Assembly: GCA_002780065.1 (NCBI GenBank)
Contig: PEWQ01000074.1
Coordinates: 1-18,209 of the forward strand
Origin: Candidatus Hydrogenedentes bacterium CG07_land_8_20_14_0_80_42_17
GTDB lineage: Bacteria > UBA8481
Length of the DNA stretch: 18,209 nucleotides
Direction: 5' to 3'
Shown here: piece by piece, positions 2,704 to 18,053 of the stretch
Position numbering within the stretch: the stretch's first letter is position 1
Layout of the letters: every line of letters starts with the position of its first letter
Notes under the pieces: generated by a model
Told to the model about the DNA's origin: nothing
The model's input: the letters and a program-made list of their open reading frames with translations, nothing else
Databases searched by the model: none
Program-made: the position numbers and the translations under genes

Positions 2704-3027
2704 TTAAAAACCCAAAGCATATAGGATTGCTATCTTTATTTCTACAAGTCGATCATTTGATAAAGTCGCGATGAGAGAACCAAGGTGCGATTTTTCGACC
2801 GTGCGCAGGTGATCAAGATTCACGACGCAATCATTTTGCAGACCATCTTCAATCGACAAATGGACTTGCGATGGCACTTCTCGAATAGCCGACGTAATAG
2901 GCGCAACAGTAACCGTCTTCAGATATTCAATATGAGTAGCGCGAGTCAGCACAAGCACTGGCCGTTTTTTATCGGGCTTAGAAAACTTGTACCAACGGAT
3001 TTCACCGCGGCATATCAATCCGGCCAT
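2704..3027 (-). CDS. mazF: MazF/PemK-type mRNA interferase toxin
   Basis: Toxin of a type II toxin-antitoxin pair; family members are sequence-specific endoribonucleases that cut mRNA. The ATG at 3027 gives 107 aa and has a GGAG five nt upstream; a TTG at 3045 would add six residues and is less likely. Family hallmarks are RGEIRWYKF near the N-terminus, KRPVLVL with the catalytic-type Arg22, the VAPITS strand with Thr45/Ser46, and the C-terminal half with DGL, NLDHLRTV and the LG turn. The length matches the family. The start lies 13 nt inside the antitoxin gene in another frame, so translation is coupled. No frameshift or missing key residue is visible, so it is probably intact. Confidence 0.93.
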   Translation of the reverse strand: MAGLICRGEIRWYKFSKPDKKRPVLVLTRATHIEYLKTVTVAPITSAIREVPSQVHLSIEDGLQNDCVVNLDHLRTVEKSHLGSLIATLSNDRLVEIKIAILYALGF

Positions 3028-3245
3028 ACTTGCTCCGCTTCCCAACCGGCGTATTCCTCTCGTTTCTGCGGATGCTTTCGGTAACCCTCTCTGTGCTTGG
3101 CTTCAAGATCACGGTCACGCAATACTTTCAGCGCATCGATAAGCGCTTTCCGAGTAAAACCGGAGCGAGTCGTCTTTAGCCTACGCGCCGCGCTATCTAC
3201 CGCTGTAACAAGCGCGGGATCCAGAGTCATCTGAACAGTTCGCAT
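3015..3245 (-). CDS. Ribbon-helix-helix (CopG/MazE-like) antitoxin
   Basis: Antitoxin expected to bind and neutralise the MazF-type partner and to repress its own promoter as a dimer. The ATG at 3245 follows a strong GGAGG five nt upstream, giving 76 aa; the TTG at 3257 would overlap that SD and is rejected. The N-terminal half (VQMTLDPALVTAVDSAARR, then LKTTRSGFTRKALIDAL) has the strand-helix-helix pattern of RHH DNA-binding proteins. The charged C-terminal half, ending GWEAEQVWPD, is the expected toxin-binding tail. The antitoxin-first order and 13-nt overlap with the toxin are typical for this family. The palindromic operator upstream supports autoregulation. Confidence 0.9.
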   Translation of the reverse strand: MRTVQMTLDPALVTAVDSAARRLKTTRSGFTRKALIDALKVLRDRDLEAKHREGYRKHPQKREEYAGWEAEQVWPD

Positions 3246-3579: not shown

Positions 3580-4722
3580 GTGATTGAAAAACGAATTTTG
3601 ATGATATCGAATTTCTTTCCGCCGGATGCAGTTGGCGGAGCCGAGCGAGTGCTCTTCAATACTGCAAAATCGCTTGCTGAACGCGGATACGCCTTGAGGG
3701 TTTTGGCGAGACAATGCCATGAGACCGAAGAAGACACGAATATTGAATTCGAGGTACATAGAAGATTAAGATTTCACGGGGCTCATCCTCAAAATCTTGC
3801 AGGTCGAATTAGACATCTTCTATTTGAAGAGTATTTTGATTCTGAAAATGCAAAAATTGTTAGAGAGGAAATAAAAGATTTCAAACCTGACTTGCTATAT
3901 CTAAATGCGCTGACCGGGCTTTCGCATTCTCCGCTATGGACTGCGGCTCAATCGGGAATTCCATTAATAATTCATCTGCACGATTATTGGCTGAGAGATG
4001 CTTTATCCCATAAAAAATTAGGTTGGTTGAATAAGATTCTTTTTTCGATGCTGAAGAATTATCTTATTGTAACCGTTTCGGAAGCGGTAAGAAGATTAGT
4101 TATTAATTCTGGAGTCGCGCCGGAAAAAGTTGTTACAGTTTTAAATGCTTTATCAGAGGATTTTCCTGTATTAGATGAGAATGAGATTAATATGAGAAGA
4201 GGAGCTGTTTACTGCGGCAGAATTTCTCGAGCTAAAGGTTTGCATATAATTGCTTCTACTGGAACAGATGTTGATGTTTATGGGAATGGAGATAAAGAAT
4301 ATCTTGAAGAGTGCATAAAAAAATCCGAAAGTCGTATTCATTACAAAGGCTGTATATCTCATAGTGAGGTGACAGATGTATTTCGACGTTACGCTATCTC
4401 AATTCTCCCGTCATTATGGATGGAACCATGCCCTTTGGTTTTGCTTGAGTCGATGGCGTCAGGTTGTGTTCCTATAGCTTCTGATATTGGAGGAATACCC
4501 GAGGTATTGGGCAGAGGAGAAGACTCTGCAGGGCTTCTGATACCGCCGGGCGATGCTCAAGCACTTGAAGAAGCTGGAAAATTTCTTTTAGATAATGACA
4601 GTGTGAGATTAGATTATGCTAAAAGAGGAATTCAGAGAGTTAAGAGATTATTCAACTGGCAGAATTATGTCGACCGCATAGAAAAAAATATTAACGAAAT
4701 GATTTTAGATCAAACTGAGTAA
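3580..4722 (+). CDS. GT4-family glycosyltransferase
   Basis: Retaining GT-B-fold glycosyltransferase, probably moving a sugar from a nucleotide-sugar donor onto a surface polysaccharide or glycolipid. The N-terminal half has the GT4 opening KRILMISNFFPPDAVGGAE, and IHLHDYW at 131-137 marks the acceptor-side domain. The C-terminal half has the donor-site EX7E motif (E282 and E290 in MEPCPLVLLE), followed by SDIGGIPEVL and the IPPGDAQAL loop. The 380-aa length is normal. The start is uncertain: GTG at 3580 gives the usual MxxKRIL opening, ATG at 3601 would cut into the first strand, and no SD is seen at either. The gene is alone on the plus strand. Its last 13 bp overlap the convergent protease gene, and no terminator hairpin is visible between them. 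The acceptor and sugar cannot be deduced. Confidence 0.92.
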   Translation: MIEKRILMISNFFPPDAVGGAERVLFNTAKSLAERGYALRVLARQCHETEEDTNIEFEVHRRLRFHGAHPQNLAGRIRHLLFEEYFDSENAKIVREEIKDFKPDLLYLNALTGLSHSPLWTAAQSGIPLIIHLHDYWLRDALSHKKLGWLNKILFSMLKNYLIVTVSEAVRRLVINSGVAPEKVVTVLNALSEDFPVLDENEINMRRGAVYCGRISRAKGLHIIASTGTDVDVYGNGDKEYLEECIKKSESRIHYKGCISHSEVTDVFRRYAISILPSLWMEPCPLVLLESMASGCVPIASDIGGIPEVLGRGEDSAGLLIPPGDAQALEEAGKFLLDNDSVRLDYAKRGIQRVKRLFNWQNYVDRIEKNINEMILDQTE

Positions 4723-7049
4723 TAAAGTTCAATTAAAATTTTTGCTAATTTATTTGGCATAAACCAATCGCGTAATTCTCGAATTGTTGAAAGAAAATTA
4801 GTTGGAAAGGTTCTCTCTAAAAGACAAACTTTATTTGTCGCTGGAGATTCAGACGCAAGAATCGATGCGAGCGGCGAATATGCTGTGAAGTAAGTGTCTG
4901 AATAAGCTCTGGCTGTTTCTGATGAAAAGTCAGAATCGGTTGCAATTGCATAAATGTAGAATGTGTCTCCGAATGACAATAGCGGCGTCAAATCGATCGA
5001 ATCGGATCCGGTATTTGAAACTCCACTTGCAAGTAAAACTCCATCGTAGCCTTGATTATCTCTATCAGCATAGAGATCGAGTTTTACCACGCTTGTCTCA
5101 TTCTGCACTGCCAGCCATTTTGTGTACGCCGCATCTTTTGCAACTGAAGCAAGGCTGACTATCTTTACCGAAAGCGCTGAAGGAAAAATAACTCGCTGAG
5201 TTTTTGAAAAACGAATTGCGTCAATATATCCTCGCATTGAATGCGCAGAACCGAAAGAAGACGGTGAACCGAGATAGATAGTATCTGAAGTTGGAGGCGC
5301 TCCAGCGACTAACTTTGACGCTTCTGACTCGCCGTTAACGTAGAGTATCATTCCTTTGGGTCCGTAAGTTATTGCGATGTGATACCATTCTCCAGAATTG
5401 AGTCGAGTCGATGAAGTTATCGTTCCGGAATCAAAGAGAGAATACTGCAGCCGCGAATCGGTGAGGAGAACGAGATCGAGATTGCCCTTTGATTTTGCTC
5501 CAAGCCCTTTTTGAGTCAAAATAAAGCGTGTCTCTGAGAGCGCGTCGGGAGTGTATTTCATGTAAAACTCGATAGTGCCTGATTCCGAATTAATCGCCGA
5601 GACGTATCCGACATAGTCGTCATCTGCGTCGAGAAGAAGCGCGTTTCTTCCGCGCCTCCCCGCATTTGCCGATACTGATGCTGTTCGAATTTCGCCAGGT
5701 GCTGCAGTTGAAAAAGTGTCGGCTCGGATCGAATAAGTGTCATTCGAAAATGGAAATAGCGTCGAATAAAGTGCATTGGAAAGAAGGTTGTATAGGTCGA
5801 TGCGGCCCCATCCGGTTTCTTCGTCATAACCGCTCGGGCCAATATCTTTCGCAGTCGCATTCATCAAAGTAATTATGTTTGCTGGAGAAAATTCAGGTCT
5901 TATCGATTTTAAAAGCGCCGCCGCCGCAGTGACTAGCGGCGTTGCAAACGAAGTTCCGCTTTTGGATACAGTTGTTGCTCCGGGACTTAAAGTTAAAACA
6001 TTATCGCCCGGTGCAGCGACATCGACTCCAGACAGAGAAGAGGGAGTTCGATACGCGGAGAACGAAGCGCGTGTGTCGGAAGATGTTGTTGCGCCTACTG
6101 CAAACGCGTATAGAGAATTCGCAGGATATGCCACAAGAGAATCCACCGCCTCTGAGGCATTATTTCCGCTTGCGGCAAAAACCGGTATTCCGGAATTTCT
6201 TGCGTAAAGCAGAGCGTCTTCGATTGCATCGATCGTGTAAGCGATTGTTTCTCCGAGAGAAAGATTTATAGCGGTCGCTTTATTCTCGACGGCTTTTCGA
6301 ATGCCATTTGCTACATTGAAGTCAGACCCGCTTCCGTTCTCATCGAGCACTCTTACAAACATGACCTTTGCGCTCCAATCCACTCCGGCAATATCGATGC
6401 CGTTATTTGTTGCGGCGGCGGCCATGCCGGCAACCATTGTTGCATGTCCGGTTCCTGTGATTGGCTCAGACGGATCGCTGTCGCCGTCCAGAATGTCAAT
6501 TCCACTTGCAAAAACAACTCTCGATGAAAGGTCGGCGTGCGTTGAATCACCGCCGGTATCGATTATTGCAATGGTCTCCGAACTCGAACCGGTCGTGAAG
6601 TCCCATGCCTCGGTGCATCGCATGATTGCATGATGGTATTGAGAAGCAAACGACGGATCGTTTGGAACGGTTGAGAGCGAATGAAGTTTGAAATTTGGCT
6701 GAACGGAATGGCAAAGCCCTGAATTTTTGAGTTCGGATATTGCGCCTTCAACGGTAATTCCATTTCTGATTTTTAAGAGATGATAATTCGAGCCCGGTAA
6801 AATTGAAAGAGTCACATAACCCATCGAATGCATAGTTGAGACTGCCGCGGCATCGCGCGGAAGAACAACTATTTCTGTAGAACTATAAAGTGGAGATGGT
6901 GCTTGAGCGCGAGATGATATCAGCGACAATAGAAAAATAATGATGAATGAAATAAAAGTGATGCGTGATGAGTGATGAGTAAAGAGAAGTTTTTGGATTG
7001 AGGACTTATTATTTTGTTTTGTAAGGAAACTCTCAGAATCTTTTTTCAT
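4710..7049 (-). CDS. Secreted S8 subtilisin-like serine protease with LamG domain and truncated CFI-box-like tail
   Basis: Exported peptidase, last gene of the import operon. The start at 7049 overlaps the stop of the CBM48 lipoprotein gene as ATGA. The signal peptide has an unusually long n-region (about 30 residues, partly encoded by a 7-bp tandem repeat), a hydrophobic core at about 31-45 and a likely cut after AQA (48-50). A propeptide-like region follows to about 130. The catalytic residues are D164 (IIDTG), H202 (GHATMVAG, with Ala instead of the usual Gly), oxyanion N296 (AASGN) and S367 (GTSFATP), so it should be active. A LamG/concanavalin-like domain covers about 471-620 (EWYHIAITY, MILYVNG, RGYIDAIRFS). 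A beta-rich module spans about 625-735. The last 40 residues (CLLERTF, IRELRDWFMPN, LIELYYSV) match the CFI-box tail pattern but stop right after YYSV. The target is unknown; it could process the surface barrels or act on external protein. Confidence 0.93.
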   Translation of the reverse strand: MKKDSESFLTKQNNKSSIQKLLFTHHSSRITFISFIIIFLLSLISSRAQAPSPLYSSTEIVVLPRDAAAVSTMHSMGYVTLSILPGSNYHLLKIRNGITVEGAISELKNSGLCHSVQPNFKLHSLSTVPNDPSFASQYHHAIMRCTEAWDFTTGSSSETIAIIDTGGDSTHADLSSRVVFASGIDILDGDSDPSEPITGTGHATMVAGMAAAATNNGIDIAGVDWSAKVMFVRVLDENGSGSDFNVANGIRKAVENKATAINLSLGETIAYTIDAIEDALLYARNSGIPVFAASGNNASEAVDSLVAYPANSLYAFAVGATTSSDTRASFSAYRTPSSLSGVDVAAPGDNVLTLSPGATTVSKSGTSFATPLVTAAAALLKSIRPEFSPANIITLMNATAKDIGPSGYDEETGWGRIDLYNLLSNALYSTLFPFSNDTYSIRADTFSTAAPGEIRTASVSANAGRRGRNALLLDADDDYVGYVSAINSESGTIEFYMKYTPDALSETRFILTQKGLGAKSKGNLDLVLLTDSRLQYSLFDSGTITSSTRLNSGEWYHIAITYGPKGMILYVNGESEASKLVAGAPPTSDTIYLGSPSSFGSAHSMRGYIDAIRFSKTQRVIFPSALSVKIVSLASVAKDAAYTKWLAVQNETSVVKLDLYADRDNQGYDGVLLASGVSNTGSDSIDLTPLLSFGDTFYIYAIATDSDFSSETARAYSDTYFTAYSPLASILASESPATNKVCLLERTFPTNFLSTIRELRDWFMPNKLAKILIELYYSV
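6958..6978. repeat. Three tandem copies of a 7-bp unit inside the protease signal sequence
   Basis: GTGATGC, GTGATGA, GTGATGA on the plus strand. On the minus strand the 21 bp keep the frame and encode part of THHSSRIT, between the start codon and the hydrophobic core of the signal peptide. Confidence 0.85.
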
Positions 7050-7519
7050 GGAGCAACCAGAATTGAATTTTCATTTTCATCAGGCTTTCTTTCAACCGAA
7101 CGATTCGTAGGATCCGTTATCCATTTGTTTCCGCCGTCAATTACGATTTTGTAAATATATCGTCTGCCGTGTTCGAGATAAACGTCATCATTGAGGTGAT
7201 CGTACTGCGGCAATTTTACATTTTCTTTGTAAGGAACAGTTACCTCCCAGACACCGTCAGGTCTTTGTTTGAAAGGAATAGTGAATCTGTCGCCTTTTCG
7301 TATTCTGCCATTGTCGTTAGGCCCCCAGCGATTGAAATCACCGGCAAGATTAACTTCGGACGCTGATATGTCGTCGTAAACAAAAATATATCCGGTTCCG
7401 TCACCGATAATTTTAGGTCCCTCCAATCTTTCTCGAACGATAGATTTACAATTACTCGATAAAGCAAGCATTATAAAAGCAGTTAGAATCAAAAATATTC
7501 TATTTCGTTTTTCTTTCAT
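7046..7519 (-). CDS. Small lipoprotein (or secreted protein) with one AMPK-beta/CBM48-type glycogen-binding module
   Basis: The ATG at 7519 has an AAAGGTGAG SD. The N-terminus is basic then hydrophobic (NRIFLILTAFIMLAL) and ends at SSNC with Cys24. Asn at -1 is not a standard lipobox residue, so lipidation is likely but not certain. The rest is one glycogen-binding module: VNLAGDFNRW (W65), YIYKIVIDGG (K124), KWITDP (W133) and ENS (N151). These match the sugar-contact Trp, Lys, Trp and Asn of the AMPK beta subunit module. A stretch of about 25 residues (around 95-120) is longer than usual between two strands. The WITDP and ENS segments closely resemble the first module of the large barrel protein next door. 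It probably presents alpha-glucan at the cell envelope. The gene is coupled by ATGA to the protease gene; upstream is a 123-nt gap with a dispersed repeat. Confidence 0.88.
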   Translation of the reverse strand: MKEKRNRIFLILTAFIMLALSSNCKSIVRERLEGPKIIGDGTGYIFVYDDISASEVNLAGDFNRWGPNDNGRIRKGDRFTIPFKQRPDGVWEVTVPYKENVKLPQYDHLNDDVYLEHGRRYIYKIVIDGGNKWITDPTNRSVERKPDENENSILVAP

Positions 7520-7572
7520 GCTCTCACCTTTCTACTAAAGAACGAATAAAATAATTGGAAAAATAAAAATTG

Positions 7573-7620
7573 GAAAAATAAAATTTTCAATTTGCACTTT
7601 TCAATCTGCAATTTCAAATT
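7573..7620. repeat. Dispersed AT-rich intergenic repeat, copy A
   Basis: A 48-bp stretch matching 18045-18092 in the same orientation at 45 positions; the first 28 bp are identical. It lies in the 123-nt gap of the operon, preceded by two copies of a TTGGAAAAATAAA-like unit. Complementary AATTGGAAAA/TTTTCAATT stretches could pair. Confidence 0.85.
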
Positions 7621-7642
7621 TAATATCCTCTACTGATCACAA

Positions 7643-10600
7643 TTAAAACCTCGCATCGATATTGAACTCGAATCTGCGCTCTACTGCGAGTATTCTTTCC
7701 GCTTCTAAAACTTGATCCAATGCCTTTGAGATTGCGCCGCCGCCGTAAGCTGGAGGGCCTCTGCGAGCTCTTGCAAGCGCACTTCGCAAGAAGAACAATT
7801 GTCCCTCCTCGATATCTTCGTCGTTATACGGATTCACTCCGAAGCCGAAATTCATCGAGACATATTTTGAGAAGAAGTAGTTCAATCTGGCGCCTAAAGC
7901 GTAATATCTTTTCGTGGAGTTAGGTTCTCTTGTTATAGTCGGATCGTTCGGCAGAGAATATGACTTCAATCTTCCTGTAAGCGCAATCTGCATTCTTCTC
8001 GTGAGATCAAATCCGATGAGTCCCTTAAGCTCCATCGTCTGGAGCGCGTTCGTTAGGATTGTGTAATCGCGGTAGCGATGATTACCTTGCAAAGTCCATC
8101 GCCCGAGTTTCAAATAAAGGTCTTGTTTGAACTGCAATAAATCGCTTGCGCCTAGAACAGTGACGTCAGTGAAATTATTGTTGTCGAAATCAGCTTGATA
8201 AATTGAATTCGGAAAATCTTTTACTGTTCGATGAACTCCTTCAATTCCGTAATAAAAATTATCCGATTTGTATCTTCCTTTTAAAGTTAGAGTATTTTTT
8301 GTTGGAGTGACATTGACTAGATTTTGGTTTCTATCCAGCGTCATAGCCGTTCCGTCATCAATTCGATAACTTGCCTCTAGCCCTAGCCGCGAAAATGGAT
8401 GATAGACTGCACCGAAAACGCCTGTGAGATCCCTTTCTCGGCCGCCCAGCAGGTATTCCCCGGCATTGAGATAATTCCGTGCGAAATAATTTGCGCTTCC
8501 GTTTGGACGCAATCCGTCTCCGTTTTCATAAGCGATGAACGCAGAGTTTTTTTGCCGGCCTGCAATCTCTCCGAATAAATGACGCGTATCGGAACCAACT
8601 CTGATGTCCGCACCCCACAATTGATTATAATTTCTTCCGTTGGGAGTCAAATGAACAAGATAATCGTAGCTGTAGTGGTCTGATGTGCCGGGTATTGTGA
8701 CGTAACCTCCGGTGTTATCGGTGAACTGAGATGTCTGAGCAATGTCGCCTCCTGCCCATCCTCGCTCTGCAATTAATCCTCTCGCTGTTTCGTTGTGAAC
8801 GAATGTTGATCCTACTCGAAGGAACCTTCCGGTCCAGGTGCCTCTCGCGGCCCAAAGATCTTCTTGATTGATAATGTGGTCTGAACCTAATGCTTGAAAT
8901 TTCCATTTATCAAAATTCAATTCGCCGTAAAGTCCTTGCCAGCCGTTTAAAGTGTAGCCTGTGTAATTGTCGTCGGTGTTCCGCCTGACATCGTCGAACT
9001 TTCGACCGAACTTGAAAGCGCTCGGCCGCTCTTCGGTTGTAAAATAAACTGCATCGTCGAGCGTGTTGCGGAACGGATCGAGCATTCTCAATGGATCATT
9101 GAAGTCGGTAATTCTGCGACGCCTAAATAAAGAAACTCGACCCCATCCTTCGTCAAGCGTGACTTCTCCTTCGTTGAAATTAGTCTCGAATCTTCCTTCA
9201 TACTGATTGATGTCTGCCTCGACATATCCGGTAATGTTGTCTCCTACAGTGAAGAGCATTCTGGGCAGAAGATCGTATTTTAGCGGCGCAAAGCGTGTTC
9301 TTCCTGTGTCGACCTTTTCGCCATCAGGAACATTTCTCAAAACTGCAGAGCCGTAAAATCTGCCGGAAAAATAAACTCGCGAATTGTAAGGCGTATTGAA
9401 TGTCGGCTGATCAGGAAGCAGTTCGAGTTTGCCGCCTTTTCCTTTTACAATCGTAAGCCGCTTGTTGTCGCCATTTTCCCATTGCCCGTCAATTACAAAT
9501 TTCCAGCCGTAACGTCCCTCTTTTATATTCGCAGTTGCAACCCAAATTCCGTCGACGTTGCGAATAAGTTTTGTTTTGCTCGGATCCCATCCGTTGAAAT
9601 CGGAACCAATACTGACGCTGTTGGCGAATGGATCAATGTAACCAAACATTACTTTTTCATCAGAGGTCATGAAAGTATTACTCTTTGTAAAATCCGCTTC
9701 CAACGGGATTTGAATTGAAGCTACTGAACCGATGCCGGCATTTGAGCTATTGCCTTTGACCTCTTTCCCATCCGCACCAATAACTATTTTGCGATTGTCT
9801 TTATTCAGAGCGTCATAGTCTCCATCTTTCCTGAATTTATATTCATAAGTTCCAGGCTCGAGTTTGATAGTTGCAGACCACTTTCCGTCACTGCCCTTTA
9901 CGCATTCGGTCGGAGAACTCCAACCGTTCCACGCACCCATAATGTCGACTTTGTTTGCGCCAGGCGCATCGACGGCAAAGAGCACTCCGGCAGAAGGAGT
10001 TTGAGGAGCGGCTGGTATGGAGGCTTGAGGAGTTGCTTGCCCGCTTGAAGCTGTTGACTGCCTCGTTCCGGAAACTGTTATCTTCTGAAGTGGACTCCAT
10101 TCGCCATCAACAATTATTGAATAGTCGTATGCTCCGGGCTGAAGATTTAAAGTTGCTTTCCATTTATCATTGGAAGTTTTAATGCATTCAGCAGGAGCCG
10201 ACCAATTGTCCCACGAACCGATGACTGAAACTTTTCTCGCATCAGGAGCAGAAACAGTAAATGTAGTAATGCGTGTGTTCGTTGATTCTGATGCATGTTG
10301 AATAGGCGGAGGCTGAGGTGATGAAGAGATAGGAGCTGAACTTATTGGAGCGACAACCTCGATGATAGAATTTTCTCCACCAAGTCCGTCGTCTCCTTTT
10401 TTAGGATTCACAGGATCGGTTATCCACTCAGCATCGTTCACGACAAATTTATATTGGTATTTTCCGACAGGCAGATTAATTCTTGCCGACCAAACTCCTT
10501 GGCTGTTCTTTACGCAAACCAACTGGTCAGACCAGTTGTTCCATGAACCCATTACTGCAACTTTTTGAGCAGAAGGAGCTTTCAGAGAAAAAACCGTTTC

Positions 10601-10666
10601 GTTACCGGTCGCAATAACTAAATTGCCGATGCCTAAAATAAAAAACAAAACAAATATTTTTTTCAT
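7643..10666 (-). CDS. Outer-membrane beta-barrel protein with four N-terminal AMPK-beta/CBM48-type modules
   Basis: Large (1007 aa from the ATG at 10666) predicted surface alpha-glucan-binding barrel. The ATG shares one base with the stop of the preceding gene (TGATG); a GTG at 10675 would add three residues. A signal peptide (KKIFVLFFILGIGNLVIATG) is followed by four repeats of about 80-90 residues, near 24-105, 130-200, 228-298 and 335-410, joined by Ser/Pro/Gln-rich linkers. Numbered from this ATG, the AMPK-type sugar contacts are W45, K73, W81 and N99 in repeat 1 (complete). Repeat 2 has W155 and W190, but S183 replaces Lys. Repeat 3 has W249 and K277, but Y284 replaces the second Trp. 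Repeat 4 has W360, K389 and W396. From about 425 to the end the sequence is aromatic, with alternating polarity, and ends FEFNIDARF, as barrels do. It is probably a glucan-capturing porin or surface display protein; whether the barrel conducts sugar is not shown by sequence. There are no TonB-box or plug signs. Confidence 0.88.
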   Translation of the reverse strand: MKKIFVLFFILGIGNLVIATGNETVFSLKAPSAQKVAVMGSWNNWSDQLVCVKNSQGVWSARINLPVGKYQYKFVVNDAEWITDPVNPKKGDDGLGGENSIIEVVAPISSAPISSSPQPPPIQHASESTNTRITTFTVSAPDARKVSVIGSWDNWSAPAECIKTSNDKWKATLNLQPGAYDYSIIVDGEWSPLQKITVSGTRQSTASSGQATPQASIPAAPQTPSAGVLFAVDAPGANKVDIMGAWNGWSSPTECVKGSDGKWSATIKLEPGTYEYKFRKDGDYDALNKDNRKIVIGADGKEVKGNSSNAGIGSVASIQIPLEADFTKSNTFMTSDEKVMFGYIDPFANSVSIGSDFNGWDPSKTKLIRNVDGIWVATANIKEGRYGWKFVIDGQWENGDNKRLTIVKGKGGKLELLPDQPTFNTPYNSRVYFSGRFYGSAVLRNVPDGEKVDTGRTRFAPLKYDLLPRMLFTVGDNITGYVEADINQYEGRFETNFNEGEVTLDEGWGRVSLFRRRRITDFNDPLRMLDPFRNTLDDAVYFTTEERPSAFKFGRKFDDVRRNTDDNYTGYTLNGWQGLYGELNFDKWKFQALGSDHIINQEDLWAARGTWTGRFLRVGSTFVHNETARGLIAERGWAGGDIAQTSQFTDNTGGYVTIPGTSDHYSYDYLVHLTPNGRNYNQLWGADIRVGSDTRHLFGEIAGRQKNSAFIAYENGDGLRPNGSANYFARNYLNAGEYLLGGRERDLTGVFGAVYHPFSRLGLEASYRIDDGTAMTLDRNQNLVNVTPTKNTLTLKGRYKSDNFYYGIEGVHRTVKDFPNSIYQADFDNNNFTDVTVLGASDLLQFKQDLYLKLGRWTLQGNHRYRDYTILTNALQTMELKGLIGFDLTRRMQIALTGRLKSYSLPNDPTITREPNSTKRYYALGARLNYFFSKYVSMNFGFGVNPYNDEDIEEGQLFFLRSALARARRGPPAYGGGAISKALDQVLEAERILAVERRFEFNIDARF

Positions 10667-12369
10667 CAGAACCACATCTCCATCTTCATGTAAATGCGCG
10701 GGTCCGTCCTGCGCGTAGCATCAATAAGATTTGCATCCAGAGAGAGATTATCGTCAGTATGCCATCCTTGCCCGTATTCCAGCCAGACTTGCGAGTTGTC
10801 GCTCGGTTTATATTGAAGCTGAAAAAAACTGGAAGCTCTGGAAAAAAAAGCATCGACTATGCTTGTCGAAGGCTTTGCCGCGTCAATATCCGATGGCTTA
10901 TTTGTTATTATCCAATTGAGGTCGGGCCGGTCCATCCACAGCCATGCGCTCCGCCCTAAAATTTTCAGCCGCTTGTTGAACATGTAACTCGCCTCCAATC
11001 CTGTAATTTTAAATTCCACCGACCTGCGTCTTAAAAGTTGCGCGTCGGCCATCAATCCGCCCCATGTGCGGTTATACTTCAATGAAGCGTATAATTGCGA
11101 TTGAACAGGGTTTTTATCTCTGATGAAACGTCCTGCATCGAAATCCATCAGGTCGCGTTCGAGTCCGTACAAGGTTCTGTTTGCCATTACTCGAACCGAA
11201 AAGTTATGAATTAATTTGGTATTCATATCGACTTCGTTTCGCCGTGACAAAATGCGCCCTGGAAAAATCCTCATTCCATATTTGTCCTGATGCCTGAATG
11301 CAATGTTTATATCGTATCTAGGAACGTCCCAGAATAATTCGGAGTAAAGATCCTTCGAGATATTATCTCCGACAGATGTGTATGCTCCGTTCTGTATCTG
11401 ATCTCCGAATGTCATCCACTCTGCGCCGCGCCCAATATAATTATAGTATTTATTTCCGAAATAAAGAAACGATACGTTTGCGCCCCACCTGCCGCTCCAA
11501 GCCTTATCCAGCAGAACAAGATTTCTCAAATCGAATCCGAATGCATCGTTGTCTGTGGTGCCGATAGATGTGTTTTCTTGCTCATTCGAGGCAAGATTGT
11601 ACTGAAGAGAAAGGCTGGTGGATTTGTAGTTTGCCTGAAATGCGGTTCCTACTGCATAGTTTTTATACAATACATATCTCGGATAGTCATACCAGTAATT
11701 TTTTTGAGCGTAATAAACTTCATTCGCAATATTTAAATCCATATTGAATCTGTAATCATGACGGAGTTTTGCCGCGAATGCGTCGTTGTCCTCGCCTGAA
11801 AGGTTTTTTTTTGCTTTGTCGTCTGCATTTTGAAGATTAACTTCTCCCGACCATTTTCCTTTTGCAAGAGTGAAATCGCCGCGGCCGAGCCACCAGTTTG
11901 TTGCTATTCCTGAACCGAATTGATCGTAAGTAATGTAGAGAAGAGGATCACCCAGAGCAAGTCTGCCTTGCCTGTAAAAAAAGTATGATTCCAACCCTTT
12001 TTCATTATCGCCTGAATCGCGTGTAAATCTGAGTTTAGTGTGAGACTCGTTCAACCAAAAATTAGTAAGTCCTCTGAAGTTGTGAAGAATCTTTGCGTAG
12101 ATCTCAATTGGAGCCACAGGATATGCGTAAGCCCTCAGCTCGACTCTGGGATCACCCATTTCTAAATTCCACGCAGGCCGCTTCATGTTATGAGTAAATG
12201 CGCGATCGTATCCTGGAGTTCGATCATCATACTCTTTGTCCGCGTCTCTTCGCATTTCTCCAGAGAGATCAAAGTTGCCTTCGAATCTCACATTGCCGGC
12301 TTTAACTGAATCGGAAATTGTCAGACAAAAAATTAATGTCGAGAAGATGAATAGTTGACGGTATCTCAC
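10666..12369 (-). CDS. Porin-like outer-membrane beta-barrel protein
   Basis: The 567-aa protein starts at a GTG (12369) with an AAAGG seven to eight nt upstream. The signal peptide ends SVKA (cut after residue 24). The rest is rich in Tyr, Trp, Asn and Arg, with short alternating strands, and ends MKMEMWF, with the C-terminal Phe that the Bam machinery recognises in barrels. I recognise no specific family, and it lacks a plug or carbohydrate module. Its place, 48 nt after the binding-protein gene and fused by TGATG to the CBM48-barrel gene, suggests it serves the same transport system, as LamB does in enteric maltose operons; that role is inferred from context only. Confidence 0.82.
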   Translation of the reverse strand: MRYRQLFIFSTLIFCLTISDSVKAGNVRFEGNFDLSGEMRRDADKEYDDRTPGYDRAFTHNMKRPAWNLEMGDPRVELRAYAYPVAPIEIYAKILHNFRGLTNFWLNESHTKLRFTRDSGDNEKGLESYFFYRQGRLALGDPLLYITYDQFGSGIATNWWLGRGDFTLAKGKWSGEVNLQNADDKAKKNLSGEDNDAFAAKLRHDYRFNMDLNIANEVYYAQKNYWYDYPRYVLYKNYAVGTAFQANYKSTSLSLQYNLASNEQENTSIGTTDNDAFGFDLRNLVLLDKAWSGRWGANVSFLYFGNKYYNYIGRGAEWMTFGDQIQNGAYTSVGDNISKDLYSELFWDVPRYDINIAFRHQDKYGMRIFPGRILSRRNEVDMNTKLIHNFSVRVMANRTLYGLERDLMDFDAGRFIRDKNPVQSQLYASLKYNRTWGGLMADAQLLRRRSVEFKITGLEASYMFNKRLKILGRSAWLWMDRPDLNWIITNKPSDIDAAKPSTSIVDAFFSRASSFFQLQYKPSDNSQVWLEYGQGWHTDDNLSLDANLIDATRRTDPRIYMKMEMWF

Positions 12370-12417
12370 AAAATTACCTTTACTAGCCCAATATTGAGAT
12401 AGATTTTTGGTCTTCTC

Positions 12418-13788
12418 TTAACGGGAAATATTGACGTCGTCGAGAATAAGCCGATCAATTTCGCGGACTGCCTCTTGTAAAGCCTTTCTGACGCCTTCCT
12501 CGTTTCCTGCTCGAAAAGCTCGGTCGATTTGAGGCACCATTATCTGACCTTCTAAAACTCCGTAACGCGGAATTTTCGGTCTTGGTATTGCAGTGCGTAT
12601 CTGCTCCATGAATACAGCTAGAGCAGGATTATCTTTGAAATTGACGAGTGGCTCCGCGAGAGTTTGAACCGGAATCTGACCGAGAGCATTGCACCATCTT
12701 GCGTGAACTTTTGGAGAAGTCAGATATTTTAAAAACTCATAACATAATTCAGGTTTCTTTGTGGTCTTCAGAATTGCCATATCGGTTCCGCCGACATTTG
12801 TGGACGTGCCGACTTTAACTTTGCCGTTCGGAGTTTCTATTTCCCTAACATTTGGTCCTTCAGGAATTAATGCCACTCCGAAATCGACTCCGGCATTTTC
12901 AAATTGCTTCAAGTTCCACGGCCCCGAAATTATCATTGCGTATTTTTGATTCACAAATCCGCGGTCTGCTCCAAGCGCCCCCGGCAACCACGCTCCAGCT
13001 TCGATTTTGTCCCACACGAGCCGCGAAATTGCAGTCAAAGCCGCCACTCCGGAATCGGAATCAAGTGTGCAACGGAATTTTCCGTCCGCATCGACATTTA
13101 CAAAATCGGTTCCGAATGCATTGAAGAACGGAAGTGTGAACCAGAGAGACGAGTTCAATGCGATTCCATAAATATTCTGCGACGAGTCAGTTAGAGCCTT
13201 TGCAGTCTTGTAGAATCTGTCGTAATCCCATTTTGGCGATGTTGCTTCGAGCTCTTTCAGCGATGCCGGTGGAAATGGAACGTTTTTATCTCGGAAAAAT
13301 TTTCGGTTGTAATAAACCGCAACGCCCGTTATCTGGTCTGGAATGCCGTACACGCCGGTTTTTACCGAGCCGTCCGCCTGCCTTAGCGGAATTCGAACTG
13401 TCTCGCGCGCCGGAGGAGTAAAAGTTTTCAGATACGTTTCGATTTCAGGATCGACTTTATTGAGGTCGAGAATACTTTGTCCGTAAACGAGGTCGATTAA
13501 TTCACCTGCATCGACTCGGACAATATCAGGCTCGGTTCCTGTTATTGCGGCAAACTTAATCTTCTGTATGTGATCTGCAAAAGGAAGCCGCTCGATTCGT
13601 ACGTGAACTTCTTTCCCTTTTTCAGCCTTATACCACTTTTCGAAATCCTCCGCGATTTTAACGAATTCGTCGTGCTCTTCAGTTGCATAAGTCTCCCAGA
13701 TTACTATTTCGTTATCAGCGCTCGTTCGCGCACCGCCGCATGATGAAAAGAGAATAGCGATTAAAAAAAACAAAATAAAGTTTCTCAT
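12418..13788 (-). CDS. ABC transporter sugar-binding lipoprotein (extracellular solute-binding family 1, MalE-like)
   Basis: Binds the sugar outside the inner membrane and delivers it to the permease pair. The start at 13788 has a strong GGAGGAG and overlaps the upstream permease stop as ATGA. Lipobox FSSC places the lipidated Cys at residue 17. Family marks include EIVIWETYATEEHDEF at the start, TGTEPDIVRVDAGEL, YGIPDQITGVAVYYNRKFF, YAMIISGPWNLKQF and VGGTDMAILKTTKKPELCYEF. Length (456 aa) is at the long end but normal for the family. The alpha-glucan specificity is inferred from the neighbouring CBM48 proteins and GH13 enzyme, not from the binding site. Confidence 0.94.
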   Translation of the reverse strand: MRNFILFFLIAILFSSCGGARTSADNEIVIWETYATEEHDEFVKIAEDFEKWYKAEKGKEVHVRIERLPFADHIQKIKFAAITGTEPDIVRVDAGELIDLVYGQSILDLNKVDPEIETYLKTFTPPARETVRIPLRQADGSVKTGVYGIPDQITGVAVYYNRKFFRDKNVPFPPASLKELEATSPKWDYDRFYKTAKALTDSSQNIYGIALNSSLWFTLPFFNAFGTDFVNVDADGKFRCTLDSDSGVAALTAISRLVWDKIEAGAWLPGALGADRGFVNQKYAMIISGPWNLKQFENAGVDFGVALIPEGPNVREIETPNGKVKVGTSTNVGGTDMAILKTTKKPELCYEFLKYLTSPKVHARWCNALGQIPVQTLAEPLVNFKDNPALAVFMEQIRTAIPRPKIPRYGVLEGQIMVPQIDRAFRAGNEEGVRKALQEAVREIDRLILDDVNISR

Positions 13789-14894
13789 TCCTTAACTCCT
13801 CCTGCGGTCAATCCTTCGATAAGATATCGCTGAGTGAATAGAAAGAGAATTACTATCGGCATGACCGAGAAGCATGATGCGGCCATCATCTGCTCCCATT
13901 GAGTCTCATACTGTCCTCTGAACATTGCGAGCCCGACGGGTAAAGTGATCAGGTCTGATTCCGGAGTATTGACCAGCAACTGCCAGAGAAAGTTGTTCCA
14001 TTGCCCGACGAATGTGAGCAGAAAGAGAATGGCGAGTGAAGGCATGACGAGAGGAACTACGATTCGATAAAAAATAGTTGCTTCCGATGCGCCGTCCATT
14101 CGCGCCGCCTCAAAGAGCGAGTCCGGTATTCCGATCATCATCTGTCTCAGCATGAAGATGCCGAAGACATTTGCAAGATGCGGAACGACAAGTCCGAAGA
14201 TTGTGTTGATCCAGCCGAATCTGGTGACTAGCGCAAATTGAGGAACCATGAACATCATGCCCGGTATCATCATCGCGGACATGAATGTCCAGAACAAAAC
14301 CTGCTTGCCGGGAAATTCTTTTTTGGCGAAGACATAAGCCGCGAGCGCGCAGAGTACGACTGTGAGGAATGCGGTCGAGAAGGCAACCATAAATGAATTT
14401 CTAAGAAATTTTAAGAATGGATAATTTGGATTCAAAGCAATTTTACGGAAATTTTCTAAAGTATAAAGACTGTGCCATGCGGCAGACCACGAGCGATTTA
14501 TTGTGACTTGATACGAATAGTTTCCGCTAGGAAGAGAATTGGCAACGATCCAATTTTTGTCTTTGTTTAGGCTTGGGCTTTCAATCTTTTTATTTCCGTC
14601 TTGATCAGTAATCTCAAAAGTTATTCCGTCTGCTTCAGGCGCGGACCATCCGATTGTAAATGAACTGTCTGAAGTAAGCTCGGTGAGATCGTTCTTCATC
14701 TTACCTTCCGGAGCCGTTCCGACTTGAAGTTTGAACGGCCCTAGCACTTCGACGCGCTTGGGGATGAACTCAAAAGTCATTCCTTTTCCTTCGACTTTTA
14801 AAGATGTTGCGGTCATCCAGAAGAAAGGAAAGAGAACGAAGATAGTTCCAAGAACAAGGCATAAGAACATGAGTGTGCGTGTGATTGAGCGCAT
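13785..14894 (-). CDS. ABC sugar permease, MalG-type, with an about 95-residue periplasmic insertion
   Basis: Inner-membrane subunit of the importer. The EAA loop that docks the ATPase lies at 262-281 (EAARMDGASE...), followed by the usual two C-terminal helices and the ending LIEGLTAGGVKE. The first helix is at about 7-30. Relatives have about 25 residues before the YTLENF motif; here that motif is at 144-149. The extra region (about 40-140) is hydrophilic and predicted beta-rich (FTIGWSAPEADGITFEI, SGNYSYQVTINRSW), resembling an Ig or fibronectin III fold between the first helix and the core. Total length is 369 aa against the usual 270-300. The gene follows the MalF-type gene by 1 nt and overlaps the binding-protein gene by 4 nt. 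No ATPase gene is present in the window. Confidence 0.94.
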   Translation of the reverse strand: MRSITRTLMFLCLVLGTIFVLFPFFWMTATSLKVEGKGMTFEFIPKRVEVLGPFKLQVGTAPEGKMKNDLTELTSDSSFTIGWSAPEADGITFEITDQDGNKKIESPSLNKDKNWIVANSLPSGNYSYQVTINRSWSAAWHSLYTLENFRKIALNPNYPFLKFLRNSFMVAFSTAFLTVVLCALAAYVFAKKEFPGKQVLFWTFMSAMMIPGMMFMVPQFALVTRFGWINTIFGLVVPHLANVFGIFMLRQMMIGIPDSLFEAARMDGASEATIFYRIVVPLVMPSLAILFLLTFVGQWNNFLWQLLVNTPESDLITLPVGLAMFRGQYETQWEQMMAASCFSVMPIVILFLFTQRYLIEGLTAGGVKE

Positions 14895-14895
14895 A

Positions 14896-15894
14896 CTATA
14901 TCGCCTTCGCTGTGCGACTGCGCAGTTTCTTTAAGAGTATAGACGACAGTTTCCGCAATGACGGGCCTTCGCTTTGGAATGCGAAGAAAGAAAGTATCGA
15001 GAGCGGCAGAGAAATTATTAATAATGCTACCGATATTGCCGCGGCGTAACCGTATTCTTGAGCAACATAGAATTTAGAGAAGAGATAATATCCGGAGAGA
15101 TTGGTTGTGCCCTGCGTTGTTCCTCCGAAGAAAGGAATTGAATCGGGAAGTGTTTCGTAAGGTCGTCCTCCGGTCATGGCGTATATCTCTGAAAAAGCCA
15201 TTAGAGAGCCGAGAATTCCCGTCACGACGAGAAGTAAAGTTATCGGCTTAACCAAAGGCACTGTTATCTTTGTGAACTTCTGCCACGCTGAAGCTCCGTC
15301 GATATCTGCCGCTTCGTAAATATCCCGCGGAATGTTTTGAATTGCGGCAAGATAAAGGATCATGCCGAATCCGGAACCTTTGAGAACGACGGATACAGCA
15401 ATGCCGGGCATTGCCCACCAAGGGTCGGCAAGAATACCATTCTCAAATATTTTTTCTAGTCCCAAAGCCGCAGTGAGCTGATCGATGACTCCGTAATTCG
15501 GAGCGTAAATAGCGGTCCACACAACTGCAATAACGAAGAGGTCAAGTACATTCGGAAGATAGAAAGCTGCTCGGAAAAATTTTGCGCCGGGAAGTTCATT
15601 GCTAAGAATCGAAGCAAGAACTAATGATAAAGCTATGTTCATCGGTATAACTAGAACTGCATAATAGAGAGTCATGATTAAAGACCAATAGAAATTTGTG
15701 TCGTAAAGCAGTTTTTGATAATTCTCAAGTCCGCACCATTTCATATCAGAAAAGATTCTTGATAGGTCGGTGTAAATGGTCGCCTTCAGAAACGAGAGAT
15801 ATACGGAATAGACGGCAGGATAGAGCAGAAATACGGCAAAGACTGCAGTAAACGGCAGAAGAAATGGTATGACAGTTTTTAGCGAACGATTCAT
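14896..15894 (-). CDS. ABC sugar permease, MalF-type
   Basis: First gene of the import operon and partner of the MalG-type subunit. The ATG at 15894 is preceded by GGAG with a 5-nt spacer. Six hydrophobic segments and the opening IPFLLPFTAVFAVFLLYP are typical of the sugar-family permeases. The ATPase-docking EAA loop is at 194-213 (EAADIDGASA...). Length (332 aa) is slightly above the family average but no insertion is evident. The stop is 1 nt from the next start. The ATP-hydrolysing subunit (MsmX/MalK type) must come from elsewhere in the genome, as is common when one ATPase serves several sugar importers. Confidence 0.94.
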   Translation of the reverse strand: MNRSLKTVIPFLLPFTAVFAVFLLYPAVYSVYLSFLKATIYTDLSRIFSDMKWCGLENYQKLLYDTNFYWSLIMTLYYAVLVIPMNIALSLVLASILSNELPGAKFFRAAFYLPNVLDLFVIAVVWTAIYAPNYGVIDQLTAALGLEKIFENGILADPWWAMPGIAVSVVLKGSGFGMILYLAAIQNIPRDIYEAADIDGASAWQKFTKITVPLVKPITLLLVVTGILGSLMAFSEIYAMTGGRPYETLPDSIPFFGGTTQGTTNLSGYYLFSKFYVAQEYGYAAAISVALLIISLPLSILSFFAFQSEGPSLRKLSSILLKKLRSRTAKAI

Positions 15895-16123: not shown

Positions 16124-16150
16124 GAGGCAGAAGTGGCGAGCTTCTGCCTC
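16124..16150. repeat. Perfect 10-bp stem hairpin
   Basis: GAGGCAGAAG, 7-nt loop, CTTCTGCCTC. A perfect GC-containing stem of 10 bp. On the minus strand it is followed by a short T5 stretch, on the plus strand by no T-tract, so it is either a minus-strand terminator, an operator or a structured repeat. Confidence 0.7.
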
Positions 16151-16263: not shown

Positions 16264-16965
16264 ATGATTAGTGTAAAAATATACCTTAAGAGTTTTGCTT
16301 CATACTTTAGCCTTTTTTTGCTTTTGGTAATTTTTTTATCCACAGCCTATGCGAAAAAGCGTGTTATTTCCGGAGATTTTGAATACGGAGAAAAATATAC
16401 GGATAACTTTGTTGCTCCCTCAGATGAGGATGTTTCGCAGGATGATTATGAATTTGACAGATATGTTTTCAGAAATTCGTGGCTTCAGTATGATCACCCA
16501 ATTCAAAAATCCGTGAAAGTTTCGATTAGAATTCAAGAGTCGGAAAAAGATTTTTCTGAGAGAGCGTATCTTAATAATTCGACAAAGTATGCTCAGATTC
16601 GAATGACTCTAGAACCTAAAGAAGGCTGGGCGATTTGGCCGCACGTTTCTATGAGAATACGGGATTACGTTAAAAATTCGATTGATAATGATATTACGAT
16701 TGCCGGATGCGAGGCGCGATACAGATGGGACATCAGACACAATGTTAGATTCGGAACCTCGTGGACTTCGACTCAATATCGAGAGAATAATTCTTTGGAC
16801 AGGCAGGCTGGAAGCGCCTTTATTTCCTATGAGAGGCCTCTATCCGAAGGCTTGACTCTGAGACTTCAAACTCGAGCGGAACAGACATCGTTCGAGAGGC
16901 AAAGCGCATTGCGCGAAAATTCTACAAAGGGATCTGCATCGGTGGGCTTCAGGTACGAGTTTTGA
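16264..16965 (+). CDS. Small predicted outer-membrane beta-barrel protein
   Basis: The 233-aa protein starts at an ATG without a clear SD. The signal peptide has a long hydrophobic core (SLFLLLVIFLSTAYA) and a likely cut after residue 30. The mature part alternates polar and non-polar residues, is rich in Arg, Ser and aromatics, and ends SASVGFRYEF, a typical barrel C-terminus. It is about the size of an 8-stranded barrel. I recognise no family. Its stop overlaps the TTG start of the SGNH hydrolase gene by 4 nt, so the two are probably made together. The role is unknown; it is much smaller than the two barrels of the import operon and shares no evident sequence with them. Confidence 0.75.
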   Translation: MISVKIYLKSFASYFSLFLLLVIFLSTAYAKKRVISGDFEYGEKYTDNFVAPSDEDVSQDDYEFDRYVFRNSWLQYDHPIQKSVKVSIRIQESEKDFSERAYLNNSTKYAQIRMTLEPKEGWAIWPHVSMRIRDYVKNSIDNDITIAGCEARYRWDIRHNVRFGTSWTSTQYRENNSLDRQAGSAFISYERPLSEGLTLRLQTRAEQTSFERQSALRENSTKGSASVGFRYEF

Positions 16966-18053
16966 TCTCATATAAAAAAAGGTTTGCTATATTAATATTT
17001 TCGCTCTTGCTATTTTTATTTTTAGCTGAGATTGGTGTAAGACTTCTGCCGTTCTTTCCGGTCAATGCGATGGGGCTTGTGATGAGGCCTGATCCTATAC
17101 TCGATCATTCGTTGAGACCTAACTCCAGAGGAAGAATGAAGAGCAGGGAATATGACGTTGTATACCGCATCAACAGTTTTGGCATGCGCGACGAACTTCC
17201 GAAAGAAAAAACAATATTGATTCTCGGAGATTCTTTCATGGAAGGATATGGCGTGAATCAGAACTTGATTTTGGCGGCAAGACTCAGGGCAATGGGACAC
17301 AATGTGATTAATGCGGGAACGAAATCTTATTCCCCTCTGCTTGAATATCTCTTTCTTAAACATAGAGGACTTGATTTAAAACCTGATACTGTGCTTCTCT
17401 TCTTTGATCTCTCGGATCCGGCGAACGACGATTATTATTCGAGAAGATTAATTAAGGATAGCGATGGAAAGCCGGAAAGAATAACGCCTAGAAGGAGCAG
17501 GATTTTGTTTCCTGAAGGAAGTGCTGGAGAGTGGCTTTCAGAGCATTCTGCTCTTTACGCATATTCAGTGCACGCTGCATTGAAATACTTTCCGATGTCT
17601 GATGCGGATATAGGATACGCGGGAGTTAACATAAATATGGATCCGCTTTTTCCCGGCCGCGATTCGATTCCTGATTCCGATTATTTTCAGAGATGGGATA
17701 CTTCGCTTGTTATGCTCAAAGAGATTGACGAATTTTTGAAGAGCAAAAATATATTTTTCGGGCTTGTCACATATCCTTATGGGCACGAGGTTTCGGCAGG
17801 TGCGTGGCGTGAGGGAAGAAAGGGACACGGATTTCCGCCGGGTGTTTCTTCCGACAGACCGTTCAGGTTTCTTGAACGCTGGGCTAAAGAAAATCACGTT
17901 TCAATATTTTCGTTGGATAAAGTTTTTAAGGCGTATCCAAATCCTAACGAACTTTATTATACGTGGGACGGACACTGGACGGCAAAAGGCCACGAAGTTG
18001 CGGCAATAGCAGTTGACGAGTGGCTCAGAACGTATAAAAAAATAGAAAAATAA
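16962..18053 (+). CDS. Membrane-anchored SGNH/GDSL-family hydrolase
   Basis: Ester hydrolase or acyl-transfer enzyme, probably acting in the periplasm on O-acylated glycans. The start appears to be TTG at 16962, overlapping the upstream stop as TTGA; no ATG precedes the conserved regions. An N-terminal hydrophobic segment (about 8-30) is an uncleaved anchor or signal. The catalytic blocks are GDS with S91 (ILILGDSF), G119 (NAGT), N155 in the PANDD stretch, and the DxH pair D336/H338 in TWDGHWTAKGH. All catalytic residues are present. The RPNSRGR and YRINSFGMRDE segments before block I are common in anchored SGNH proteins of envelope polysaccharide loci. The stop codon lies inside a dispersed AT-rich repeat. 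The substrate is not deducible; it may modify the polymer made by glycosyltransferases such as the GT4 enzyme, which is speculation. Confidence 0.9.
   Translation: MISYKKRFAILIFSLLLFLFLAEIGVRLLPFFPVNAMGLVMRPDPILDHSLRPNSRGRMKSREYDVVYRINSFGMRDELPKEKTILILGDSFMEGYGVNQNLILAARLRAMGHNVINAGTKSYSPLLEYLFLKHRGLDLKPDTVLLFFDLSDPANDDYYSRRLIKDSDGKPERITPRRSRILFPEGSAGEWLSEHSALYAYSVHAALKYFPMSDADIGYAGVNINMDPLFPGRDSIPDSDYFQRWDTSLVMLKEIDEFLKSKNIFFGLVTYPYGHEVSAGAWREGRKGHGFPPGVSSDRPFRFLERWAKENHVSIFSLDKVFKAYPNPNELYYTWDGHWTAKGHEVAAIAVDEWLRTYKKIEK

Follow-up and report, generated by a model that had tools for sequence, protein, structure and literature searches.

The window analysed here, an 18,209-base stretch of DNA, is a complete contig (C29) of a 2.39-Mb MAG that comprises 207 contigs and is ~87% complete. 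Read along its minus strand from 15894 to 4710, it encodes a MalF-type and a MalG-type permease, a solute-binding lipoprotein (SBP), two candidate outer-membrane beta-barrels (barrel1 and barrel2, the latter preceded by four CBM48 modules), a small CBM48 lipoprotein (LP) and an S8 protease (Table 1). A preliminary description had placed these genes in a single run; all seven lie on the same strand where it put them, in a run larger than it reported. The genes follow one another closely: MalF and MalG are separated by 1 nt, MalG and SBP share a 4-nt ATGA overlap, as do LP and S8, and barrel1 and barrel2 share a 1-nt TGATG-type overlap, counted from the ATG at 10666. Its phrase 'strung together' fits these junctions and slightly overstates the run as a whole, because SBP and barrel1 are spaced by 48 nt and barrel2 and LP by 123 nt. 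A terminator search of the 123-nt gap found none that was prominent, an Rfam search of the locus matched no RNA, and the run is probably co-transcribed.

Table 1. Features of the locus, in window coordinates unless another locus is named.
Feature	Position	Strand	Support or remark
Candidate leader terminator/attenuator (10-bp hairpin and T-run)	16124-16150	minus	230 nt upstream of MalF
MalF-type ABC permease, 332 aa	14896-15894	minus	PF00528 E=3e-12; nearest NCBIfam UgpA/MalF, below cut-off
MalG-type ABC permease, 369 aa	13785-14894	minus	PF00528 E=1.5e-14; similarity to MalG/UgpE
MalG periplasmic insert, ~100 aa after TM1	14475-14789	minus	PF22058 (X25-like) E=0.0017, below cut-off; alignment
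SBP lipoprotein, 456 aa, lipobox FSSC	12418-13788	minus	SBP_bac_8 E=3.6e-30
Barrel1, candidate outer-membrane beta-barrel, 567 aa, signal peptide, C-terminal MWF	10666-12369	minus	
Barrel2, signal peptide, four CBM48 modules and predicted ~22-stranded barrel, 1007 aa	7643-10666	minus	AMPK1_CBM x4 E=1.2e-40
CBM48 module 1	10343-10606	minus	nearest to secreted GH13 modules of the same genome
CBM48 module 2	10052-10276	minus	lacks the conserved Lys
CBM48 module 3	9761-9994	minus	
CBM48 module 4	9431-9670	minus	orthologue of relatives' single module; 49% identity to G001's only module
Barrel2 barrel domain, conserved helical insert ahead of last strand	7646-9406	minus	alignments
Small CBM48 lipoprotein (LP), 157 aa	7046-7519	minus	CBM_48 E=1.5e-5; 53% identical orthologue at the same place in G001
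Secreted S8 protease, LamG domain, CFI-box-like C-terminus	4710-7049	minus	Peptidase_S8 E=4.5e-47; Laminin_G_3
Glycosyltransferase	3580-4722	plus	adjoins operon
PemK/MazF-like toxin gene	2704-3045		between GH13 and glycosyltransferase; E=2.6e-18
Cytoplasmic GH13, cyclomaltodextrinase-like, no signal peptide	1116-2453	minus	Alpha-amylase E=9.2e-54; NF041090 E=9.8e-78, below cut-off
MalG-CBM48 fusions in relatives	L026 6814-8190; L087 877-2250; L086 5846-7165		first periplasmic loop

The hairpin ahead of MalF is the strongest terminator-like site, with the total number of such sites not above that in shuffled sequences; no minus-strand gene immediately precedes it, and it might act as an attenuator. 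A divergent gene (16264-16965) encodes a small, secreted, beta-rich protein that ends in YEF, as a barrel might, and has no significant family match; an SGNH/AlgX-like gene follows it.

The S8 protease is kept in two relatives, G001 and G270, and its C-terminus resembles a CFI box (E=4e-5 in the G001 orthologue, 0.077 in the window). Degenerate ends of this kind, found at 4713-4850 in the window, at 17483-17638 and 6400-6672 in L011 and at 5493-5630 in L027, are common to S8 proteases and a GH13 of G312, and could be a sorting signal.

An ABC importer and its partners

Both permeases belong to the BPD_transp_1 family and the binding lipoprotein matches SBP_bac_8/1 in Pfam, so that the locus holds the two MalF/MalG permeases and the solute-binding protein of a CUT1-type importer, bearing out the proposal that an ABC importer forms part of the same operon. 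The ATPase is encoded outside the window, on contig C183, where a MalK with an OB/TOBE domain adjoins a CBM48 gene and is followed by two GGDEF proteins; this MalK presumably pairs with the MalFG of the window. On contig C51 of the same genome, a CBM48-GH13 adjoins MalQ. In the relative G030, MalK lies within the same run as the outer-membrane genes, which MalK and two GGDEF proteins extend upstream. Two GGDEF genes thus stand right behind MalK in both G030 (L026 9121-12268) and the window genome (L131 2262-5113), a pairing that would be compatible with c-di-GMP control of glucan uptake.

The MalG proteins of G030, G312 and G270 carry a true CBM48 between TM1 and the transport core, together with a further stretch (AMPK1_CBM/CBM_48, E down to 1.7e-13). 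This site is a periplasmic loop, and at the same place the window MalG has a shorter insert that is possibly a relic of an X25-like beta-sandwich. We found no description of a MalG-CBM48 fusion in the open-access literature searched.

Two paralogous candidate barrels and the CBM48 modules of barrel2

Barrel1 and barrel2 have signal-peptide-like N-termini, both end in F, and they are distant paralogues of one another (hhalign 95%, E=3.6e-8). Barrel1 has no match in Pfam or NCBIfam, a PDB sequence search returned no relative of either protein, and neither matches any Pfam or NCBIfam porin family, the LamB signature included. The structure prediction that the preliminary description had proposed was informative for one of the two: the barrel1 model is beta-rich and of low confidence (pLDDT 40), too poor to use, and was left out of the fold search, whereas the moderate barrel2 model (pLDDT 55 overall, pTM 0.48, barrel part often 60-90) resembles outer-membrane barrels, which are its top Foldseek and VIA-align matches throughout. 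Barrel2 is numbered here from the ATG at 10666, giving 1007 aa of a 1010-aa open frame.

TonB-dependent receptors align to residues 410/430-1007 of this pLDDT 55 model with their barrels from first to last strand (VIA-align Z 13-16; for example, BtuB 134-594), whereas 16-stranded porins cover just part of it. A full match to TonB-receptor barrels and a partial one to porins would be compatible with ~22 strands and a periplasmic N-terminus in barrel2. Two alignments begin at residue 335 and pair module 4 with the plug region of Cir and Fiu, a slight indication and no more that CBM48 might take the place of the plug; the PF07715 Plug domain was not found in barrel2, which has CBM48 at that N-terminal place, and neither barrel has one. 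Both proteins are probably outer-membrane channels, with a moderate model and fold match pointing that way for barrel2.

The carbohydrate-binding assignment is clear of its thresholds (138 bits against a CBM48/AMPK1_CBM cut-off of 26.8 for barrel2; 25.7 against 22.4 for LP), and a PDB search relates the modules to AMPK-beta, pullulanase and plant glucan phosphatases. The residues that contact glucan in AMPK (W100, K126, W133 and N150) have their equivalents in 41, 41, 39 and 36, respectively, of 42 barrel2-attached modules. Identity between module 1 and the CBM48 modules of the secreted GH13 encoded in this genome is 53-57%; modules 2 and 3 are similar to one another and to module 1. The window lineage has most likely gained three modules, because G001 has a single one that matches module 4 and modules 1-3 are kin to each other and to the GH13 CBM48. 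In the barrel2 homologue of G272 (L117 6074-8584), two domains of CBM20, a different starch-binding family, replace CBM48. The alpha-glucan theme of the preliminary description is thus upheld by intact AMPK-type binding residues, by this exchange and by linked GH13, GH57 and MalQ genes, including secreted CBM48-GH57 or CBM48-GH13 enzymes linked to the module in relatives. CBM48 alone does not establish uptake.

Conservation of the proposed outer-membrane module

The same gene order, which the preliminary description had proposed to seek in other genomes, is present in G001 (contig RFFU01000040.1, 'Candidatus Hydrogenedentota bacterium isolate J006'), the only other genome of the phylum in the set searched and a member of a different family within the same taxonomic order. 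Its locus (L011) runs uninterrupted as MalF-MalG-SBP-barrel1-barrel2-LP-S8-GH13, with the cytoplasmic GH13 gene (17654-19042) abutting the operon, whereas in the window the glycosyltransferase and PemK/MazF-like genes are inserted and the GH13 gene lies 2.3 kb away. Identity to the window is 48% for barrel1, 50% for the barrel domain of barrel2, 59% for MalG, 53% for LP and 43% for S8. Immediately after the operon's GH13, G001 also has an open frame of 3471 aa (L028 1065-11480) with a CBM48-like module near its start.

In a scan of genome contigs, the barrel domain alone as query gave no match and a two-row barrel profile matched G001's contig alone. The two-row barrel-domain profile then led to G030, G312 and G270, in other phyla, a five-row profile added 12 further genomes, and two more entered through barrel1. 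Searching elsewhere with barrel1 alone returned weak C-terminal matches only, several of which are the syntenic barrel1. Barrel profile searches of viral contigs and plasmids found none, and a phage or plasmid origin was dropped. In all, profile searches turned up a CBM48-barrel or its homologue in 36 annotated genomes. These span at least six phylum-level groups, since the window, G030, G270, G210 and G366 each stand for a separate phylum and additional positives fall in none of the five. The phylum of G210 has it in 17 of 20 genomes and that of G366 in all seven.

We annotated these loci with local profiles in all 36 genomes. The near-invariant run consists of barrel1, barrel2 and a CBM48 lipoprotein with one or two modules, often preceded by a PorV/UPF0164-like barrel. 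Because barrel1 and barrel2 are adjacent in 33 of the 36 genomes (contig ends or a missed barrel1 account for the rest), and because the order is kept in G001 at 43-59% protein identity, we dropped a chance neighbourhood as an explanation: gene order is kept across phylum-level groups. The ABC importer is the commonest partner of the module, although its placement varies. MalF directly follows the run in 16 genomes, namely G135 and 15 members of the G210 phylum; SBP immediately precedes barrel1 in three (G000, G001 and G030); G152, G366 and G405 have the importer on the same strand, a few kb downstream, and G237 has it within ~30 kb; and contig ends carry the two halves in G270 and G312. For about ten genomes, the stretch fetched holds the module and no importer, so that conservation attaches to the outer-membrane module rather than to the operon as a whole. 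The preliminary description had said that barrels occurring apart from ABC genes would count against it, and these genomes are a weak instance of that.

Proposed function and relation to known systems

We consider it probable that the operon lets a diderm bacterium take up alpha-glucan (starch, glycogen or maltodextrin) with neither SusC/SusD nor LamB and with its CBM48 modules in the periplasm. Secreted CBM48-GH13 enzymes, joined in relatives by CBM48-GH57, would shorten the polymer, and the resulting malto-oligosaccharides would cross the outer membrane through barrel1 and the CBM48-carrying barrel2. CBM48 on the periplasmic face of barrel2, LP and, in relatives, the CBM48 in the MalG loop may then retain the chains and hand them to the binding lipoprotein and on to MalFG-MalK, after which cytoplasmic GH13 and MalQ would complete degradation. 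Substrate and transport direction are read here from gene content. Points that speak against this reading are the weak barrel models, the genomes whose fetched stretch has no ABC genes beside the module, the separation of GH13 from the operon in the window and the place of MalK on another contig.

SusC/SusD-independent glucan import, the core of the preliminary description, is well supported as a reading of the sequences, with function and substrate putative. SusD_RagB (PF07980) is missing from all 14 module-bearing genomes, with a Bacteroides control positive, and Pfam finds no Plug or TonB_dep_Rec in the operon; a SusCD variant was dropped in view of the absent SusD. Plug receptors do occur in 12 of the 14 genomes (none in G030 or G312), and the window genome has a single one, beside tonB-like and btuFCD-like genes. 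With SusD absent and the sole Plug receptor in a btu-like locus, 'without SusC/SusD' is true of the genome as assembled, beyond the operon.

That description's placing of glucan binding at the cell surface finds no such support. N-terminal domains of even-stranded outer-membrane barrels face the periplasm. The barrel2 modules are expected there because they are N-terminal to a barrel that, as modelled, matches TonB-receptor barrels starting at the first strand, and they more likely serve periplasmic capture and hand-off, or as a plug, than as a surface net. The same pathway with surface-exposed modules that capture polymer outside, as SusE/SusF do, seems unlikely to us: LP could itself lie on the outside of the cell, genes for secreted CBM48-GH enzymes are close by, and one relative's barrel2 weakly matches SusF_SusE (E=0.0066), but the barrel2 model aligns to TonB-receptor barrels start to end with the modules where the plug enters, and the MalG-borne CBM48 of the three relatives is necessarily periplasmic. 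Beyond periplasmic placement, we entertain only tentatively the idea that barrel2 represents a novel type of glucan channel in the outer membrane, a barrel the size of a TonB receptor in which CBM48 or CBM20 replaces the plug and serves to gate or ratchet the pore independently of TonB, and in which the modules up to that of MalG form a periplasmic relay of long alpha-glucans to the ABC importer.

Two further readings concern what is moved and in which direction. The modules might have the cell's own material or other glycans as ligands while the operon imports a different oligosaccharide; SBP substrates are unreadable from sequence, and the best NCBIfam similarity of this SBP, far below cut-off, is to GanS (galacto-oligosaccharide). 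We regard this as quite improbable, given that CBM48, CBM20, GH13, GH57, MalQ and MalK, all alpha-glucan families, surround the locus. Still more remote is the export or display of an alpha-glucan, such as a capsule or glycogen-like exopolysaccharide, a reading that the alginate exporter AlgE among the fold matches of barrel2 and the adjoining glycosyltransferase gene would favor. An SBP with MalFG is an importer, the secreted GH13/GH57 and cytoplasmic GH13/MalQ enzymes fit catabolism, and G001 has no glycosyltransferase at the corresponding place, so export was dropped in favor of uptake.

The components are members of known families; what may be new is their architecture. In the open-access literature searched, we found no description of a CBM48-barrel, a paralogous barrel and a CBM48 lipoprotein feeding a MalFG, whether or not the latter carries CBM48. 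Starch oligosaccharides cross the outer membrane by three textbook routes: LamB-type porins, SusCD and single TonB receptors. If our reading is correct, a further route exists beside them in at least six phylum-level groups and is near-universal in two; it gives otherwise unannotated barrels and CBM48 lipoproteins a putative function and yields a testable claim on how long glucans are held between two membranes.

The Sus/SusCD locus of Bacteroidota likewise combines a dedicated outer-membrane barrel, starch-binding proteins and secreted amylases, whereas here SusD is absent, the operon lacks a TonB receptor, a barrel with CBM48 stands in for one with a plug and the ABC importer is in the operon. 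With the E. coli maltose regulon (LamB, MalEFGK), the window genome shares MalF, MalG, a MalE-like SBP, MalK and cytoplasmic maltodextrin enzymes; it differs in having no LamB match, a lipoprotein SBP, two non-LamB barrels with CBM48, and a periplasmic insert in MalG rather than MalF. Caulobacter MalA, a TonB-dependent maltodextrin receptor (see PMC6851124), is also a large barrel for moving maltodextrin across the outer membrane, but it works with TonB/ExbB/ExbD, and neither barrel here has a Plug domain. Finally, the modules share their fold and glucan-contact residues with the CBM48 of AMPK-beta and the N-terminal CBM48 of GH13 enzymes, yet here an outer-membrane barrel carries them, and in relatives an ABC permease has one as an insert.
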